From Verrucomicrobiia bacterium (GTDB lineage: Bacteria; Verrucomicrobiota; Verrucomicrobiia; Limisphaerales; UBA11358): a DNA stretch of 60,284 nt. The notes under the pieces were generated by a model. The model did not search any database. It was not told the DNA's origin and worked only from the letters and a program-made list of their open reading frames with translations. The stretch is taken from contig JANWKE010000045.1 of NCBI GenBank assembly GCA_025451535.1, forward strand, positions 1 through 60,284. Direction: 5' to 3'. Positions within the stretch are counted from its first letter, which is position 1, and each line of letters begins with the position of its first letter. Position numbers and translations under genes: made by a program. Positions 4,061 to 9,536 of the stretch are shown piece after piece.

Positions 4061-4750
4061 ATGGCATCTGATTATGACGCAACGGAGTTCGTGGACACCG
4101 ACTTTCAGGCGCACAAAACACCCGGTCTGTCCGCCAGCGACCCGCTTCGCCCGCCCACGCGCGAGGAGGTGGACCGCAAAGTTGTCGAGGCCCAGCAAAA
4201 GCTCGCCGAATTGAAGCGGGCGCAGGAGGATCTGGAGCGCGAACGCGCCTCCCTGGAGGAATTGCGCCGGCGCCAGACGGAATTCCAGACTGGTCGGCAG
4301 GAAATGATCCATAGTTTGACGCGCGGACTGGGTCTGCTGGAGGAAGCCGAATTCAACACCCGCCGCGACGCCGAACAAATGGTCAAGACCATCGGTGATT
4401 TCCGCGACGCACTCACCAAAATCCAGGCCATCCACGACGAGGTGTGGACCAAGGAAAATTTCAACCTCGAACTCACCCGCGCGCTCACCACGATTGAAAA
4501 CGCGCGCATGGAATGGAACGCCGCGCGGCTGAAAGTGCCGGTCTTGTCCGGTCCGGCGCCGGAGAAGCCGCAAACCGAAAATGCGCCGGCGCCGTCCGGG
4601 TCGTCGTTGGCCGGCGCCAGCTTCGGCCAGTTGTGCAAAATCGGCCTGGCGATGACCTGGCCGCTGATTTTGGTAATTATTCTGGGCGCCATCGGAGTGG
4701 GATTGGTGATCTGGATGACGACGCCCGTGCCGATGCCGGTGCATCGTTGA
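4061..4750 (+). CDS. coiled-coil protein with C-terminal membrane anchor
   Basis: An unrecognised 229-residue protein. Residues 34-75 are a highly charged coiled coil (repeated Glu/Arg/Leu heptads, e.g. LKRAQEDLERERASLEELRRR). A Pro/Ala-rich linker follows at about 160-185, and a single hydrophobic segment (about 200-222, WPLILVIILGAIGVGLVIW) lies ten residues from the end, giving a tail-anchored topology. The next gene starts 10 bases downstream and has a similar plan (coiled coil, linker, C-terminal membrane segment), so the two are probably one operon and may act together. Confidence 0.8.
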   Translation: MASDYDATEFVDTDFQAHKTPGLSASDPLRPPTREEVDRKVVEAQQKLAELKRAQEDLERERASLEELRRRQTEFQTGRQEMIHSLTRGLGLLEEAEFNTRRDAEQMVKTIGDFRDALTKIQAIHDEVWTKENFNLELTRALTTIENARMEWNAARLKVPVLSGPAPEKPQTENAPAPSGSSLAGASFGQLCKIGLAMTWPLILVIILGAIGVGLVIWMTTPVPMPVHR

Positions 4751-4760
4751 AATCCGTCGT

Positions 4761-5282
4761 ATGGCGTCCGCGAAGAAAAAGGCAAAGAAAAGCGACCCGA
4801 TTTCCGAGCGTGCCCGCGCGTTGAACGACCAGATTGCCTCGCTCGAAGCTGAAATCAAGCGGCTCGACAACCAGTTGCAACACACGCCCGTGCCCCGGCT
4901 GCGTTCCACCGCCGTGCCGCACGGCGCGACGGTTGCCCGCGCTACGGAACCGCCCCCGCCTGCCCACGTCGCGCATGAGCCGGTTTTTGAAGAGGTAAAA
5001 CCATTGCGGCCTGCCGACGAAACCACCGCGCCCGACCAGTTCAATGAATTTGGCGTGCGCAAGTATGATTTGCCCGGACTTTTTGGCCGTCTTCGCCAGC
5101 ATTTCCGCCGCCCGACGACTTCCAATCCGCGGCTGGTCACCTATCTTGCCGCCGGTGGCGTCCAGGGGCTGCGTCCCTTGCGCTACGAAAAGCGCGTCGC
5201 CCGCAACCGGTTTATCCTGCTGGTGGTTTTTTTGTTTGCGATTCTGCTCGGCGTCATTTCCATTTTTGTCCACAACCGCTGA
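4761..5282 (+). CDS. small tail-anchored coiled-coil protein
   Basis: An unrecognised 173-residue protein that follows the previous gene by 10 bases. It begins with a Lys-rich stretch (MASAKKKAKKSD), then a predicted coiled coil at about 17-38 (RARALNDQIASLEAEIKRLD), a Pro/Ala-rich linker, and a C-terminal hydrophobic segment (RFILLVVFLFAILLGVISIFV) with only four residues after it. The body segment FNEFGVRKYDLPGLFGRLRQHFRR is polar. Its architecture parallels its neighbour. Function is unknown; an envelope or membrane-scaffold role is only a guess. Confidence 0.8.
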   Translation: MASAKKKAKKSDPISERARALNDQIASLEAEIKRLDNQLQHTPVPRLRSTAVPHGATVARATEPPPPAHVAHEPVFEEVKPLRPADETTAPDQFNEFGVRKYDLPGLFGRLRQHFRRPTTSNPRLVTYLAAGGVQGLRPLRYEKRVARNRFILLVVFLFAILLGVISIFVHNR

Positions 5283-6016: not shown

Positions 6017-7246
6017 CTATGGCCAGGAAAGTTTGTTCGTGCCGGACTCGGGAATGAAAGTTTCCGCCTTCTGACCGTTGTTCTCCGGCTTCTGGCTTCC
6101 GGCCTCCGGTTTCTGATTCCCGGTTTCCGGCTTTGGCCGCAGAGCGTCGGCGACGGCCTGCGCCAGTTTTTGCCGGAATGCCGGCGTCTCAATCTGCCGC
6201 GCATCACTTGGATTTGACAGGAAGCCTGCTTCAATGAGGACGGCGGGACAATGTGGTCCGTGCAGCACCCCCATGAACCGCGCCCGGCAGACGCCGCGAT
6301 CTTCCATCCCGCTTTCGTGCAGCAAGGCGCCCTGCAACCGTACGGCGAGTTGCAGATTCTGCTCGTCGAACGCGTTGTTGGGAAAACTCTCAGACCAAAA
6401 ATCACCGTAACCCCGCGTCAGCGTTGAAGGCATTCCAGTGGGCGTCACACAATACGTTTCGATCCCTGCCGGGAATTTGTCGGGCGCGAGCGAATTGAAA
6501 TGCAGGCTGATGAACAATTCCGCGTGGTGCGTTTCGGCGAACGTGACGCGGTTGGACAGCGAATCGTCCACGTCGTTCGTATGCGTGAGAAAAACCTGCC
6601 AGCCCTCCTGCGCGAGCAATGGTGCCAGCCGCAACGCCCAGTCCAGCGTGAATTCCTTCTCGAACCGTCCATCCAGGATACTGTGCGTGCCGCTGTTCAT
6701 TCCGCCGTGGCCGGGATCAATGACAATGACCGGATTGGCCGGCGGCAACGCCAACGACGGGCCGCAGAGCAACGGTTCCAGATTTTTTTGCACGTCGAGC
6801 CCGTACACGAAAAGCTGGCCGTCAATGATCTGTGGTCCAAAGCCGAGATGAATTTCGATTCCGTTCCAGGTTGCCTCCCGATTGCCAATGGCCAGAACCA
6901 TGACGCCGTTGGAAGAACCAACCGCATAAGTGGTGACCGGCATGTTTGACAGGAGGTGCGATTTGCCAACACCGTGTTGCGTCGCCCAATTGTCCAACGA
7001 AATCCACGTCGTCAGGGGCCTGACCGGCACCTGTCTCGGGGCCACGGGCGGCTGCCACTCTTCCGCCGGCGCATTCGACGGGACGACCGGCATCATCAGC
7101 TTGACCGGCGCCGGCCCGAACGGATTGTGAGCGATATTGGTGTTAACCCAGCCCAATGCCGGGAATTTGCTCCCGGCGGAGGGCCGGGCCGCACCGGCGA
7201 GACAAAAAAACGCCACGGCAAAAATGATTCCGACAAACTTGAACAC
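6017..7246 (-). CDS. N-acetylmuramoyl-L-alanine amidase (Amidase_3)
   Basis: A 409-residue exported cell-wall hydrolase that cleaves the amide bond between muramic acid and the stem peptide. A signal peptide spans about 1-20. Residues 30-165 are an uncharacterised N-terminal region. The amidase domain (about 170-375) shows the zinc-binding and catalytic pattern: His in VIVIDPGHGG, Glu in FEKEFTL, His in ISLHFNS and the catalytic Glu in VLIEAGFLSN. The last 40 residues are a Lys-Pro-Glu-rich tail of four 7-residue repeats (KPETGNQ, KPEAGSQ, KPENNGQ, KAETFIP) encoded by a 7-bp-phased DNA array. It diverges from ubiX. Confidence 0.93.
   Translation of the reverse strand: MFKFVGIIFAVAFFCLAGAARPSAGSKFPALGWVNTNIAHNPFGPAPVKLMMPVVPSNAPAEEWQPPVAPRQVPVRPLTTWISLDNWATQHGVGKSHLLSNMPVTTYAVGSSNGVMVLAIGNREATWNGIEIHLGFGPQIIDGQLFVYGLDVQKNLEPLLCGPSLALPPANPVIVIDPGHGGMNSGTHSILDGRFEKEFTLDWALRLAPLLAQEGWQVFLTHTNDVDDSLSNRVTFAETHHAELFISLHFNSLAPDKFPAGIETYCVTPTGMPSTLTRGYGDFWSESFPNNAFDEQNLQLAVRLQGALLHESGMEDRGVCRARFMGVLHGPHCPAVLIEAGFLSNPSDARQIETPAFRQKLAQAVADALRPKPETGNQKPEAGSQKPENNGQKAETFIPESGTNKLSWP
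6063..6140. repeat. 7-bp-phased array encoding the amidase tail
   Basis: Read on the minus strand the DNA splits cleanly into heptamers: gaaaccg, ggaatca, gaaaccg, gaggccg, gaagcca, gaagccg, gagaaca, acggtca, gaaggcg. Three heptamers make 21 bp, so the protein shows 7-residue repeats. The phasing matches the other 7-bp arrays in 7.3-9.5 kb. Confidence 0.7.
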
Positions 7247-7290
7247 GCCACTATTGTGCGGAAGGGAAAAGCCGACTCAAGCTGTTTCCG

Positions 7291-7325
7291 CATTTACGAT
7301 TTACGATTTACGATTTACGATTTGT
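7291..7325. repeat. (GATTTAC)n heptamer array upstream of ubiX
   Basis: Five consecutive 7-bp units lie directly before the ubiX start: catttac, gatttac, gatttac, gatttac, gatttgt. They fill most of the divergent 85-base space between the amidase and ubiX genes, where the promoter of either gene should be. Confidence 0.85.
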
Positions 7326-7330
7326 GTCCA

Positions 7331-7888
7331 TTGAAGATTCTCGTCGCCATCACCGGAGCCAGCGGCGCGCTCTACGCGCAGCGCCTGCTCGATAATCTGG
7401 ATTCGCACGCGCATGAAATCCATGTCGTGCTGAGCAACTATGCGCAACAGGTCATCGCGGAGGAATTGCCGGGCGGATTGAAACTTCCCCCCGGGGCGAG
7501 GCTGCACAATGTGAAAAGTATGAACGCGCCGTTTGCCAGCGGTTCGAACCCGCCCGACGTCATGGTCGTCATCCCCTGCACCATGGGCACGATGGGCCGC
7601 ATTGCGCACGGCTACAGCGAGGATGTCCTCCTCCGCGCCGCTGATGTGGTGCTGAAGGAGAAGAAGAAGCTGATTCTGGTACCGCGCGAAACGCCATTGA
7701 GCCTGGTTCATGTCCGGAACATGGAACTGCTGTTGCAGGCCGGCGCCACCATTTTGCCGGCGAATCCGGGATTTTATTCAAATCCAAAAACCATCCAGGA
7801 AGTCGTGGACACCGTCGTCGCGCGCGTGCTGGACCATCTGGGCCTGCCGCAAAAGCTGGTGCCGCGGTGGAGCGAAGAAAGGGAATGA
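7331..7888 (+). CDS. ubiX: UbiX-family flavin prenyltransferase
   Basis: A 185-residue protein that makes prenylated FMN, the cofactor of UbiD-type decarboxylases. It opens (L)KILVAITGASGALYAQRLLD, the FMN-binding Gly-Ala-Ser-Gly motif of the family, and has VIPCTMGTMGRIAHGYSEDVLLRAADVVLKEKKKLILVPRETPLS, the typical C-terminal signature. The reading frame is open far upstream but homology begins at the TTG at 7331 (an in-frame TTG at 7322 is the other choice), directly after the heptamer array. With the ubiA homologue downstream and mqnE and mqnA elsewhere in the window it probably serves menaquinone synthesis by the futalosine route (MqnM-like role, inferred). Confidence 0.93.
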   Translation: MKILVAITGASGALYAQRLLDNLDSHAHEIHVVLSNYAQQVIAEELPGGLKLPPGARLHNVKSMNAPFASGSNPPDVMVVIPCTMGTMGRIAHGYSEDVLLRAADVVLKEKKKLILVPRETPLSLVHVRNMELLLQAGATILPANPGFYSNPKTIQEVVDTVVARVLDHLGLPQKLVPRWSEERE

Positions 7889-7889
7889 T

Positions 7890-8393
7890 ATGGGGAAACA
7901 TCAAACATCGAACATCGCACATCGAACTTTGAATGAAACGGCGGGCGAGGTCTGGATGTTGCATGATGACAAGGCGGGCAGTCGAAAATTCGACTTGGAA
8001 AGCCGGTTGCTTGAATTTGCCTCGGCAGTAATTGATTTGACCGAGAAACTACCTTCTTCGCGCGCCGGGAACCACATTGCCGGACAGATTTTGCGCTCTG
8101 GCACATCACCCTACCCTAATCACGGCGAGGCTGAATCCGCCGAGTCACGGGAGGATTTCATCCACAAGTTGAAGATCTGCTTGAAAGAACTCCGCGAAAC
8201 GCGCCGCTGGGCACGGCTGATTCAACGTAAAGGGTGGGCAAAAGACGATCCGATGTTGCGTTTCACCTTGAGCGAATCCGACGAACTCATTCGTATTTTC
8301 ATGTCCAGCATCCGAACCGCGCAGCAGAACGCGTTAAAACAAAAGCGCAGGACGCCTGACCCGACTCAGTATCCTTACAGCAGAACCGGCTAA
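7890..8393 (+). CDS. four-helix-bundle protein (23S rRNA intervening-sequence type)
   Basis: A 167-residue protein (or 145 from the ATG at 7956). Residues about 33-150 match the small four-helix-bundle family first known from open reading frames inside 23S rRNA intervening sequences (TIGR02436/PF05635): FDLESRLLEFASAVIDLTEKLP, then IAGQILRSGTSPYPNHGEAESAESREDFIHKLKICLKELRETRRW. Molecular function of the family is unsettled; some relatives accompany reverse transcriptases (Avd). The start ATG lies two bases after the ubiX stop behind a GAAAGGG ribosome binding site. The first 15 codons are encoded by a heptamer array whose inverted counterpart follows the stop codon, so the gene sits inside a repeat-bounded cassette between ubiX and ubiA. 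Confidence 0.88.
   Translation: MGKHQTSNIAHRTLNETAGEVWMLHDDKAGSRKFDLESRLLEFASAVIDLTEKLPSSRAGNHIAGQILRSGTSPYPNHGEAESAESREDFIHKLKICLKELRETRRWARLIQRKGWAKDDPMLRFTLSESDELIRIFMSSIRTAQQNALKQKRRTPDPTQYPYSRTG
7896..7937. repeat. left heptamer arm of the four-helix-bundle cassette
   Basis: Six 7-bp units in register: aaacatc, aaacatc, gaacatc, gcacatc, gaacttt, gaatgaa. The consensus GAACATC is the reverse complement of the unit GATGTTC in the right arm at 8400-8434. Confidence 0.88.
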
Positions 8394-8399
8394 CCATTC

Positions 8400-8434
8400 G
8401 ATGTTCGGCGTTCGACGTTCATTGTTTGATGTTT
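8400..8434. repeat. right heptamer arm of the four-helix-bundle cassette
   Basis: Five 7-bp units in register: gatgttc, ggcgttc, gacgttc, attgttt, gatgttt. It starts six bases after the stop codon of the four-helix-bundle gene and is inverted relative to the left arm. The ATG of the next gene (8429) lies in its last unit. Confidence 0.88.
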
Positions 8435-9385
8435 TCTTTAATTAAAAAATGGGGTTCGTTCGTCCGTTTCCCGCACACGGTCTTCGCGCTGCCGTTCGCG
8501 CTGGCGGCGATGATGGTCGCCGCGCGTGATAACCGCGGCTGGCCGGGTTGGGAGAAATTTCTGCTGATTCTCGCGGCCATGGTTTGCGCCCGGACTTGCG
8601 CCATGGCGTTCAATCGCATCGTGGACCGCAAATTTGATGCGCTCAACCCCCGCACTGCCAACCGCCATTTGCCCACCGGACAAATCTCCCTGGCCAGCGC
8701 CATCGCACTTTGGATTCTGAGCGGCGCGGGGCTGGTCGTGGCCAGCTATTTTCTAAACCCGCTATGCTTTTACCTGTCGCCGGTTGCGCTGGTGGTGATT
8801 TGCTTTTATTCGCTGACGAAACGGTTCACGGATTACACGCACGTTTTTCTCGGGCTTTCGCTGGCGCTGGCGCCGGTTGGCGCGTGGCTGGCGGTGAAAG
8901 GTGAATTCGGGTTTCAGCCGTCTCCGGCAGATATTTTCTCTTCGTCTGAAGCCTTTTGGGCCTGGTTTGATTCGATAAGAGTTGGCTTGCAGCCGATTGT
9001 TCTCGCGCTGGCGGTCGTGCTGTGGCTGGTTGGTTTCGACATCATTTATGCGCTGCAGGATTACGAGTTCGACAAGTCGCACGGCCTGCGCTCGCTCGTG
9101 GTGGCGTGGGGTCCGAAAAACGCGCTGGCCGCCGCGTTTCTCGCGCACATGGTCATGTGCGGACTGCTGCTGGCGTTTGGGCTGCTCTGCCAATTCCGCA
9201 TCGCCTATCTCGTCGGCTGGTTTCTTATCGTCGGGTGCCTCGTGCTGGAGCACTGGATTGCCCGCCGCCGCAGTTTGAACTGGATCAACCTCGCGTTCTT
9301 CCGCCTGAACGCCGTGATCAGCACGGTTTTCCTCATCGTTACCGCCGCCGAGGTGATTTTTCAGGGCGGGTTCAGGCTGCGATGA
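8429..9385 (+). CDS. UbiA-family prenyltransferase (MqnP-like)
   Basis: A 318-residue integral membrane prenyltransferase that would attach a polyprenyl chain to an aromatic acid. Both Asp-rich motifs are present: NRIVDRKFDALNPRTANR (about 70-87) and YALQDYEFDKSHGLRSL (about 207-223). Eight or so membrane segments are visible. In genomes with the futalosine route this family member (MqnP) prenylates 1,4-dihydroxy-6-naphthoate; mqnE and mqnA in the same window support that reading, but 4-hydroxybenzoate could be the substrate in other contexts. The start ATG is inside the right heptamer arm and has no recognisable ribosome binding site; there is no earlier in-frame ATG that would keep the family N-terminus. 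Confidence 0.9.
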   Translation: MFSLIKKWGSFVRFPHTVFALPFALAAMMVAARDNRGWPGWEKFLLILAAMVCARTCAMAFNRIVDRKFDALNPRTANRHLPTGQISLASAIALWILSGAGLVVASYFLNPLCFYLSPVALVVICFYSLTKRFTDYTHVFLGLSLALAPVGAWLAVKGEFGFQPSPADIFSSSEAFWAWFDSIRVGLQPIVLALAVVLWLVGFDIIYALQDYEFDKSHGLRSLVVAWGPKNALAAAFLAHMVMCGLLLAFGLLCQFRIAYLVGWFLIVGCLVLEHWIARRRSLNWINLAFFRLNAVISTVFLIVTAAEVIFQGGFRLR

Positions 9386-9393
9386 AAATTAGG

Positions 9394-9492
9394 GAACATT
9401 CAACGCTCAACATTCAACTCCCAAAGCCCAATGGCGACTCGCGCGAAGCAGTTTGATGTTGGGAGTTGAAGGTTGAAGGTTGAGAGTTTTTC
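9394..9492. repeat. gene-less inverted heptamer element
   Basis: Left arm units in strict 7-bp register from 9394: gaacatt, caacgct, caacatt, caactcc, caaagcc, caatggc. Right arm from 9451: gtttgat, gttggga, gttgaag, gttgaag, gttgaga. TTCAACTCCCAA (9413-9424) and TTGGGAGTTGAA (9459-9470) are a perfect 12-bp inverted pair, extendable to about 26 bp with a few mismatches. It fills most of the space between ubiA and the kinase gene and would form a long hairpin. Confidence 0.85.
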
Positions 9493-9536
9493 TATCATCC
9501 AGGTAACGTCTTTCCGGTTTTGCTTCTGAAGCAGGC

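Follow-up and report, generated by a model that had tools for sequence, protein, structure and literature searches.

The spacer between ubiX and ubiA in a verrucomicrobial genome raises the question of what a small four-helix-bundle gene, bordered by inverted arrays of 7-bp units, is doing between these two genes. The window analysed here is the whole 60,284-nucleotide stretch, contig C45 of the genome designated G000. Taken together, the evidence makes it probable that gene and arms represent a single member of a widespread group of small selfish cassettes. These cassettes would be intercistronic relatives of the intervening sequences (IVSs) of 23S rRNA, accompanied by gene-less satellites that resemble REP elements.

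Anatomy of the ubiX-ubiA locus

The bundle protein scores 45.6 bits against PF05635 (23S rRNA-intervening sequence protein; cut-off 33.8) and 78.1 bits against TIGR02436 (four helix bundle protein; cut-off 24), and PF05635 is its only Pfam domain. The first-pass annotation had placed such a gene between ubiX and ubiA, and the domain matches of gene and neighbours, all on the + strand, bear this out (Table 1). Gene and arms together fill the spacer. The left arm covers codons 3 to about 15 of the bundle gene, and the right arm reaches into the ubiA start codon (8429). The two arms form a gap-free 40-bp inverted pair with a score of 24, the best inverted match of these flanks; the 95th percentile for mismatched flank pairs is 18. 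Tandem Repeats Finder (TRF) reports one period-7 array at 7897-7927, with 87% matches, and another at 8397-8420, with 82%. The 7-bp register noted earlier is thus kept, and the units are degenerate. The onset of the right array six bases past the bundle-gene stop had been given correctly.

Table 1. Features of the ubiX-ubiA locus, in positions of the window
Feature	Position	Strand	Evidence
Solo (ATTTACG)n array just 5' of the ubiX start	7289-7327		TRF, period-7 array scan, match to L007 arm
ubiX, flavin prenyltransferase-type flavoprotein	7331-7888	+	PF02441 (155 bits), translation; stop codon 7886-7888
Four-helix-bundle (23S rRNA IVP) gene, 167 aa	7890-8393	+	PF05635, TIGR02436; TAA 8391-8393
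Left arm, about 5-6 heptamers AAACATC/GAACATC	7896-7935	+	Inverted match, TRF period 7
Right arm, about 5 heptamers GATGTTC on the + strand	8395-8434	-	Inverted match, TRF, RNA fold
ubiA, downstream neighbour	8429-9385	+	PF01040 (171 bits)
Gene-less heptamer hairpin, satellite-type, directly 3' of ubiA	9389-9490		TRF 9395-9418 and 9465-9483, fold

A gene-less relative of the arms had been reported about 1 kb away, and it is recovered as the hairpin 3' of ubiA. Its units are AACATTC/AACTCCC on the left and GTTGAAG on the right. The sequence 9385-9500 folds into a hairpin of -43.6 kcal/mol (z -5.5), and its left array finds its best match among the cassette arms of the genome in L001, with a score of 16. 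The solo ATTTACG array before ubiX shares its unit with the arms of L007, the cassette at the lpxA site of the same genome (score 26). A further 7/21-bp array of TCCGGCT type (6083-6137) lies within the 3' coding end of an amidase gene (6017-7246, minus strand). It translates as repeated KPE-like peptides and appears to be a heptamer array captured by the coding end.

Inverted arms around bundle genes in other loci and genomes

The arm score was defined as the best local match between the 330 bp upstream of a gene and the reverse complement of the 330 bp downstream, with a threshold of at least 18. The genome and its relatives supplied a first set of 94 distinct bundle entries, 90 of them with 250-bp flanks. 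Inverted arms were found at 70 of these 90 (69/89 as genes, the frameshifted L009 being counted twice). Mismatched flank pairs reached the threshold in 60 of 1075 cases, and other genes of the same stretches in 5 of 135, these being the 135 of 201 control genes that lie more than 700 bp from any bundle gene. In direct orientation, 17/90 reach a score of 18. The remaining 20/90 fall below the arm threshold, and L022, L026, and L027 show no inverted match of any kind.

A second set was drawn from named genomes of many phyla, as the best 80 of at least 580 loci, of which 77 remained after removal of short flanks. Arms were present at 64/77 of these best-matching loci, against 73/1147 mismatched pairs. 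With phylum labels taken from record titles, the counts among the same best 80 of at least 580 loci were 9/9 for Planctomycetes, 23/31 for Bacteroidota, 9/11 for Verrucomicrobia, and 3/4 for Acidobacteria. Armatimonadetes, Cyanobacteria, Omnitrophota, Proteobacteria, and candidate phyla were represented in smaller numbers. A third set of 41 loci was reduced to 38 by leaving out L364 (internal stop), L370 (frame lost at a contig edge), and L376 (short flank); 32/38 were armed, compared with 36/443 mismatched pairs. Of this set, 28 loci come from the order to which the L180 genome belongs (record title Lysobacterales), and 25 of them have arms. The expectation of the first-pass annotation that other copies would carry arms is thus borne out in all three sets. 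At least one bundle gene occurs in 35 of the 40 genomes around and including that of the window, and in 74 of 200 genomes of another order. One locus of a metagenome-assembled genome titled Klebsiella pneumoniae (L125, CALQJI020000002.1) holds a bundle cassette with GTTGAGAG arms. Its protein shares 69% identity with the verrucomicrobial query, and the record title may reflect a mistake in binning or naming.

Within the genome of the window, 14 PF05635 matches correspond to 13 genes, one of them frameshifted. Nearly all of the 13 entries whose flanks were inspected lie between inverted arrays whose units vary by locus; at L014, arms are not clearly visible. Broken bundle genes also occur in this genome, namely L008 (internal TAG) and L009/L013 (frameshift), and their arms persist.

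Units differ between cassettes, and within a cassette the left arm matches the right. About 79/90 and 63/85 periodic flanks have 7 or twice 7 as their best period; a period of 8 comes next, and others are rare. Arms contain a median of 4.3 units, and 99 of 116 fall between 2.5 and 5.5. A strict search (19/21 lag matches) of 369 kb, made up of the window and 20 stretches from contigs without a bundle gene, returned six arrays at period 7 and none at any other period from 4 to 14. The same 369 kb after block shuffling returned none.

Filled, empty, and altered sites

One and the same site can be found filled, empty, occupied by another insert, or with an internally deleted cassette. The survey of ubiX covered 30 loci in the genome and its relatives, its own included. 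The orthologous cassette is present at seven (own, G034, G001, G017, G010, G008, and G021), and a different bundle cassette with GAGGATT-type arms occupies two (G005 and G019). Short spacers of -4 to 56 bp occur at eight (L047, L050, L059, L066, L067, L069, L071, and L073) and gene-less spacers of 79-112 bp at six (L048, L054, L056, L057, L062, and L068). In L055 (G007) and L072 (G004), the spacer holds a different small frame that looks ankyrin-like by eye, and L061 has an unclassified 88-bp spacer. ubiA is out of reach at the other four (L045, which is cut off within a heptamer array, L053, L063, and L070). This variety answers the earlier doubt whether the site might always be filled, since it includes empty, other-cassette, and gene-less versions.

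Three of the six gene-less spacers form clear hairpins (L048, L056, and L068; 0/500 shuffles as good), and L054 forms a weak one (16/500). A hairpin was not supported for L057 and L062, with 115/500 and 152/500 shuffles as good. L053, where ubiA is out of reach, passes the same shuffle check clearly. By eye, L056 is the only heptamer-type hairpin among the gene-less ubiX spacers, and the others resemble another kind of repeat. Spacers of that other kind, inverted and without a gene, follow ubiX in L048, L053, and L068; they read GCCACAGAG / CCAAGACACC, with a period of about 8 by eye. Inverted spacers of the same kind, again by eye only, precede def in L249, L251, L256, and L257. Their period of 8 equals the second period of bundle-gene arms.

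The lpxA site was surveyed at 30 loci as well. Besides the cassette of the window's genome, related inserts occur in G014, G026, and G001. G022 and G024 carry shortened inserts of 173 and 151 bp with both arms retained; the shortened versions at this site (L216 and L217) are internal-deletion derivatives. G016 has a 255-bp insert with other units; the insert of G008, also 255 bp, is a different one and contains an inverted pair. The other 22 loci comprise 19 spacers of -4 to 71 bp and three of 115-141 bp. The inserts of G000, G026, and G001 have intact genes that form one clade and different heptamers. In G005:C24, a PF05635 match (4975-5271) places another bundle gene directly before lpxA (4139-4903). 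At the def site, the insert is common to G024 only, and this site tells little because many relatives have another upstream gene. Inspection by eye at ubiX-ubiA and lpxA revealed no evident target-site duplication; the nearest empty sites are diverged.

Joint inheritance of gene and arms

The 70 armed cassettes of the first set, which include the armed copies of G000 and only some of the copies in other genomes, yielded 2340 different-site pairs after 75 same-site pairs had been removed by blastp of flanking frames. Arms were called alike at a score of 16 in the same orientation relative to the gene. They are alike in 14 of 33 different-site pairs with protein identity of at least 60% and not in the other 19, one of the 33 being counted twice. 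The share is 13.5% of 37 pairs at 50-60% identity and about 1.5% below 50%. Likeness in opposite orientation was seen in none of the 70 different-site pairs with at least 50% identity. The Mantel test gave 1 of 999. Different-site cassettes with similar proteins thus often share arms in a fixed orientation, which shows that arms and gene travel together and are co-inherited at different sites.

The flanking genes differ in the five similar different-site pairs that were examined. In one of them, L018 and L079, the proteins are 77% identical and both have AGTGACGAG-type arms beside unrelated neighbours. From the translations, we take the neighbours of L018 to be DUF1800/DUF1501-like and those of L079 to be semialdehyde dehydrogenase/dihydropyrimidinase-like. 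Armed copies, varied site states, and arms shared between sites support the repeat-bounded cassette of gene and arms that the first-pass annotation had proposed.

Movement appears to be rare. At each of three sites tested, the copies form a single clade, and the 70 armed cassettes include no near-identical different-site copies, the highest protein identity being 80%. Both observations suggest movement over evolutionary time rather than recent movement in this sample. Same-site monophyly would also be expected from long vertical inheritance with loss. On a tree of ubiX and ubiA, cassette presence requires six changes, compared with a shuffled mean of 6.2. Horizontal homing into ubiX-ubiA is suggested by this scattered presence, and we do not claim it, as the conflict between host and cassette trees is weak (best AU p = 0.029, one among several tests). 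Several losses, or transfer, may account for the scattered presence.

Concerted change of the two arms was considered and set aside. For the seven lpxA inserts, the mean arm match is 20.9 within a locus and 12.9 across loci, which favours it; an arm finds its best match in the partner arm of its own locus in only 3/7 rows, and three of the seven are close relatives. At ubiX-ubiA, the corresponding values are 26.7 and 23.4, the units there being too alike between species.

Gene-less arrays as satellites of resident cassettes

Arrays far from any bundle gene were sampled in 20 stretches of G000 (309 kb) on contigs without a bundle match, with C13, C16, and C21 skipped. These stretches contain no bundle frames. 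At a level of at least 17/21, they contain 16 period-7 arrays; for 11 of these, no inverted partner reaches a score of 17 inside a distance of 1 kb. In G001, where C2, C9, and C17 were likewise skipped, 12 arrays occur in 311 kb (plus one masked-run hit). The corresponding figures for genomes without bundle genes are 0 in 240 kb for G011, 1 in 200 for G031, 2 in 182 for G032, and 8 in 334 for G035. These densities support a dependence on bundle genes, with G035 as a partial exception. G035, which has no PF05635 match, harbors a multi-copy period-7 family CTTTGCA/CTTTGCAT in stretches L297, L303, L305, and L310. Its arrays have no inverted partners within 1 kb and represent either an exception to the link between bundle genes and arrays or a relic.

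The gene-less arrays sampled in G000 consist of the same heptamers as the cassettes resident there. For this comparison, arms needed a score of only 16, and the 16 sampled arrays were joined by two from the window, one of which (9389-9421) was added by hand since the array scan had not listed it. Own-genome arms match 17 of the 18 arrays at a score of at least 15. Equal-sized arm sets from other genomes match a mean of 7.0 and a maximum of 13, and the mean match of the own arms was reached in 0/300 random draws. In G001, where six of 14 bundle matches were available as arms, 6/12 gene-less arrays match own arms, with 5/300 draws as good.

Six genomes are too few for array density alone, so unit counts over 40 genomes (G000-G039) were added, in which triplets of ATTTACG and GTCAGTA were counted with at most three mismatches. 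The genome of the window has 223 overlapping places with ATTTACG triplets and none with the reversed pattern. Across the 40 genomes, counts of the two units rise with bundle-gene number (Spearman 0.49 and 0.50, uncorrected for relatedness). Five bundle-less genomes give 2, 0, 0, 13, and 0 for ATTTACG and 0, 0, 0, 3, and 0 for GTCAGTA. Several bundle-bearing genomes lack either unit, for example, G012 and G028, which have many bundle genes. Four genomes in which a GTCAGTA-armed cassette was seen have 38, 36, 66, and 5 GTCAGTA hits; the others have a median of 1, four of them with 33, 20, 18, and 12. Among neighbouring opposite-strand ATTTACG arrays in four genomes, counted with overlapping registers of one array partly left out, 16/17 pairs show the polarity of the cassettes. 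The picture is that of a resident cassette with many gene-less relatives, which may be comparable to REP elements beside RAYT genes.

The frequency of solo arrays invites the explanation that heptamer microsatellites arise by slippage and collect in spacers where bundle genes happen to lie too, the two being unrelated. We find this scarcely credible. Inverted matching within a locus exceeds that of mismatched pairs and control genes, a single period is involved, and the arm unit tracks protein similarity and polarity. Period specificity and the mismatched-pair controls rule out slippage by chance.

RNA folding, strand polarity, and the role of the arms

In an RNA fold of 7880-8450, the arms pair across the whole insert of about 500 nt (z -2.45, 1/100 shuffles as good). 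Four gene-less hairpins give stable folds as well; together with this insert they span z -2.45 to -7.6. Such pairing, together with an anatomy like that of the Coxiella IVS, would fit an RNA-level intervening sequence whose arms form a stem cleaved by RNase III. The insert would then be removed from the mRNA and would otherwise be passive and vertically inherited. Selection on an RNA stem should produce an excess of sense-strand G-U pairs among arm mismatches. The counts ran in the opposite direction (130 vs 172 in the first count; 330 vs 418, p = 0.0015), which speaks against such selection. Without an enrichment of wobble pairs on the sense strand, there is no need to assume that the stem acts as RNA. 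A passive insert would also leave unexplained why satellites follow the resident units and why single unpaired arrays exist, and we judge this explanation quite improbable.

Over three sets with 166 armed cassettes, left arms are G-rich in 138/161 loci, other upstream sequence is unskewed, and right arms are C-rich in most armed cassettes. The G-rich left arms point to a fixed polarity and do not tell which molecule is involved. The AACATC family of the window has the reversed, minority polarity. With crude ORF calls, the left arm starts -12 to +13 bp from the upstream stop in 33/53 cassettes, and the right arm ends -8 to +9 bp from the next ATG in 28/48. Both neighbours are on the same strand in 38/70.

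This placement could also suit a regulator that serves the host. The protein would bind the arms in its own polycistronic mRNA and adjust how the next gene, ubiA in this case, is translated or its message processed, with the arms acting as an operator and not as mobile ends. Purifying selection on the protein core, the pairing of arms in the folded transcript, and the G-rich left arms are compatible with this role. Against it stand the patchy presence, unrelated cassettes at the same site, one cassette lineage beside unrelated genes, dispersed gene-less arrays of the same unit, and the lack of a sense-strand G-U excess. A regulatory role is therefore considered unlikely, and a mobile cassette remains the preferred reading.

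The bundle protein

The AlphaFold2 model of the protein of the window has a pLDDT of 87 (59-row alignment), with block values of 45-59 in residues 1-30 and above 95 in residues 41-150. The left arm encodes part of the N terminus, which is predicted to be disordered. The solved structures nearest to the model are 2rld (E 2e-6) and 2gsc (E 8e-4), both of the S23/IVP family and with five chains per entry each. Across seven ubiX-ubiA orthologs, pN/pS is 0.22 in the core, 0.63 in the arm-coded N terminus, and 0.68 in the tail, with synonymous sites near saturation. Selection thus maintains the protein in the lineage of the window, with purifying selection on its core. Anti-phage defence was dismissed as a function, as PADLOC defence models returned no match for five bundle proteins.

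One poor match apart, the next structural neighbour is Avd of the Bordetella phage diversity-generating retroelement (DGR; 4dwl, E 0.046, TM 0.80 by target length). PF05635 is described as Avd-like in part of the literature (PMC10053308), and two of five copies give weak NCBIfam Avd hits below the cut-off. The protein could accordingly be an Avd accessory part of a DGR or of another known retroelement. This assignment is very improbable. The fold is like that of Avd (PDB 4dwl and 8ub7), but the protein of the window has no Avd-model hit, and no linked DGR reverse transcriptase was found. Only one reverse transcriptase was found in the genome; it is encoded on a different contig and is group II intron-like by eye. 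At that locus (L114, G000:C101), the group II intron-like protein is followed by a domain-V-like tail, also by eye.

Relation to known systems and a proposed mechanism

The closest described counterpart is the 23S rRNA IVS of Coxiella burnetii. The published account describes an S23p ORF flanked by terminal inverted repeats that pair into a stem, inserted at helix 45 of 23S rRNA. It further describes tandem GACAGAT heptamers just before the ORF, with a copy number that varies between strains, and calls the IVS selfish (PMC4990558). The cassettes share with it the PF05635 protein, terminal inverted repeats (40 bp and gap-free here), and heptamers at the gene. Unlike it, they lie between protein genes, occur several times per genome, vary in their heptamers, and have dispersed gene-less relatives. 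The cassette of the window lies between ubiX and ubiA and not in the 23S rRNA gene by which IVSs are located. An rRNA location was rejected for ten further bundle loci too, as none of those scanned had rRNA nearby. The cassette can be read as a variant of the IVS kind outside its defining location; it may also represent a wholly new class.

RAYT is an HUH-type transposase. REP/REPIN systems with TnpA-REP (RAYT) combine a gene with many short, palindromic, gene-less relatives per genome, as described in parts of PMC8266576 and PMC3116915. The likeness consists in a gene-bearing element accompanied, within one genome, by dispersed gene-less relatives that share its unit (17/18 arrays). In contrast, the cassettes have no HUH (Y1) transposase, their sole gene encodes a four-helix bundle for which no catalytic site is known, and they end in tandem 7-bp arrays that vary in sequence. 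With insertion sequences and MITEs, they share inverted terminal repeats, but near-identical copies were not found among the 70 armed cassettes.

In the mechanism we propose, the bundle protein, a putative pentamer, would recognize the repeated heptamer of the arms, possibly with one unit per subunit. We infer binding of the protein to the heptamer, and a pentamer is suggested by the chain number in the solved relatives; the four to five units per arm fit this number and prove nothing. The arms may be recognized as RNA or as single-stranded DNA. The protein could help to copy or insert the cassette, as well as gene-less arm pairs, into intercistronic sites. No transposase is encoded in the cassette, so enzymes of the host or of a helper would have to carry out the strand chemistry. 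By pairing into a hairpin, the arms may loop the insert out of the operon transcript, between ubiX and ubiA, which may explain why the host tolerates it. A 23S rRNA IVS would be the same kind of element lodged in rRNA.

Heptamer arrays in other bacteria

Heptamer repeats are over-represented in bacteria and, according to the part of the source that treats them, lack a detailed literature (PMC4692102). A broader reading, held tentatively and with somewhat less than even confidence, is that PF05635 proteins form the coding part of a large, bacteria-wide mobile class. Its ends would be a fixed rhythm of about four to five inverted heptamers read by a pentameric ring. The ends would drift, with each protein pacing its own unit and satellites, and the class would include rRNA IVSs as well as the arrays of Xanthomonas, Nostoc, Beggiatoa, and others. 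If true, this would give a common protein family a genetic role tied to over-represented heptamer repeats. Many genes annotated as "four helix bundle protein" inside operons would be reclassified as insertions. The origin of rRNA IVSs and the spread of heptamer arrays would become directly testable questions, through binding and mobility. If ends drift while the 7-bp rhythm stays, the recognition mode would be unusual for mobile DNA.

Among the top-ranked papers listed from open PubMed Central full text, none ties PF05635 genes to heptamer arrays. For Beggiatoaceae, part of MacGregor 2015 (PMC4679880) describes abundant intergenic heptamer arrays of one unit, TAACTGA. Unlike the arms of cassettes, these are direct repeats, mostly before start codons, with one inverted pair. 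The terms "S23", "23S", and "four helix" do not occur in the text of that source. Xanthomonas GGGAATC and Nostoc GGGGA(C/T)T arrays are described as G-quadruplexes in part of Rehm 2015 (PMC4692102), with 70-75 convergent (inverted) array pairs per Xanthomonas genome. That portion makes no link to a bundle gene, and "four-helix" and "XCC0516" do not occur in the text. In the order-level search, arms of the GGGAATC/GGGATTC type, alike to the Xanthomonas arrays, were recognized by eye in L383, L385, L386, L393, and L394.
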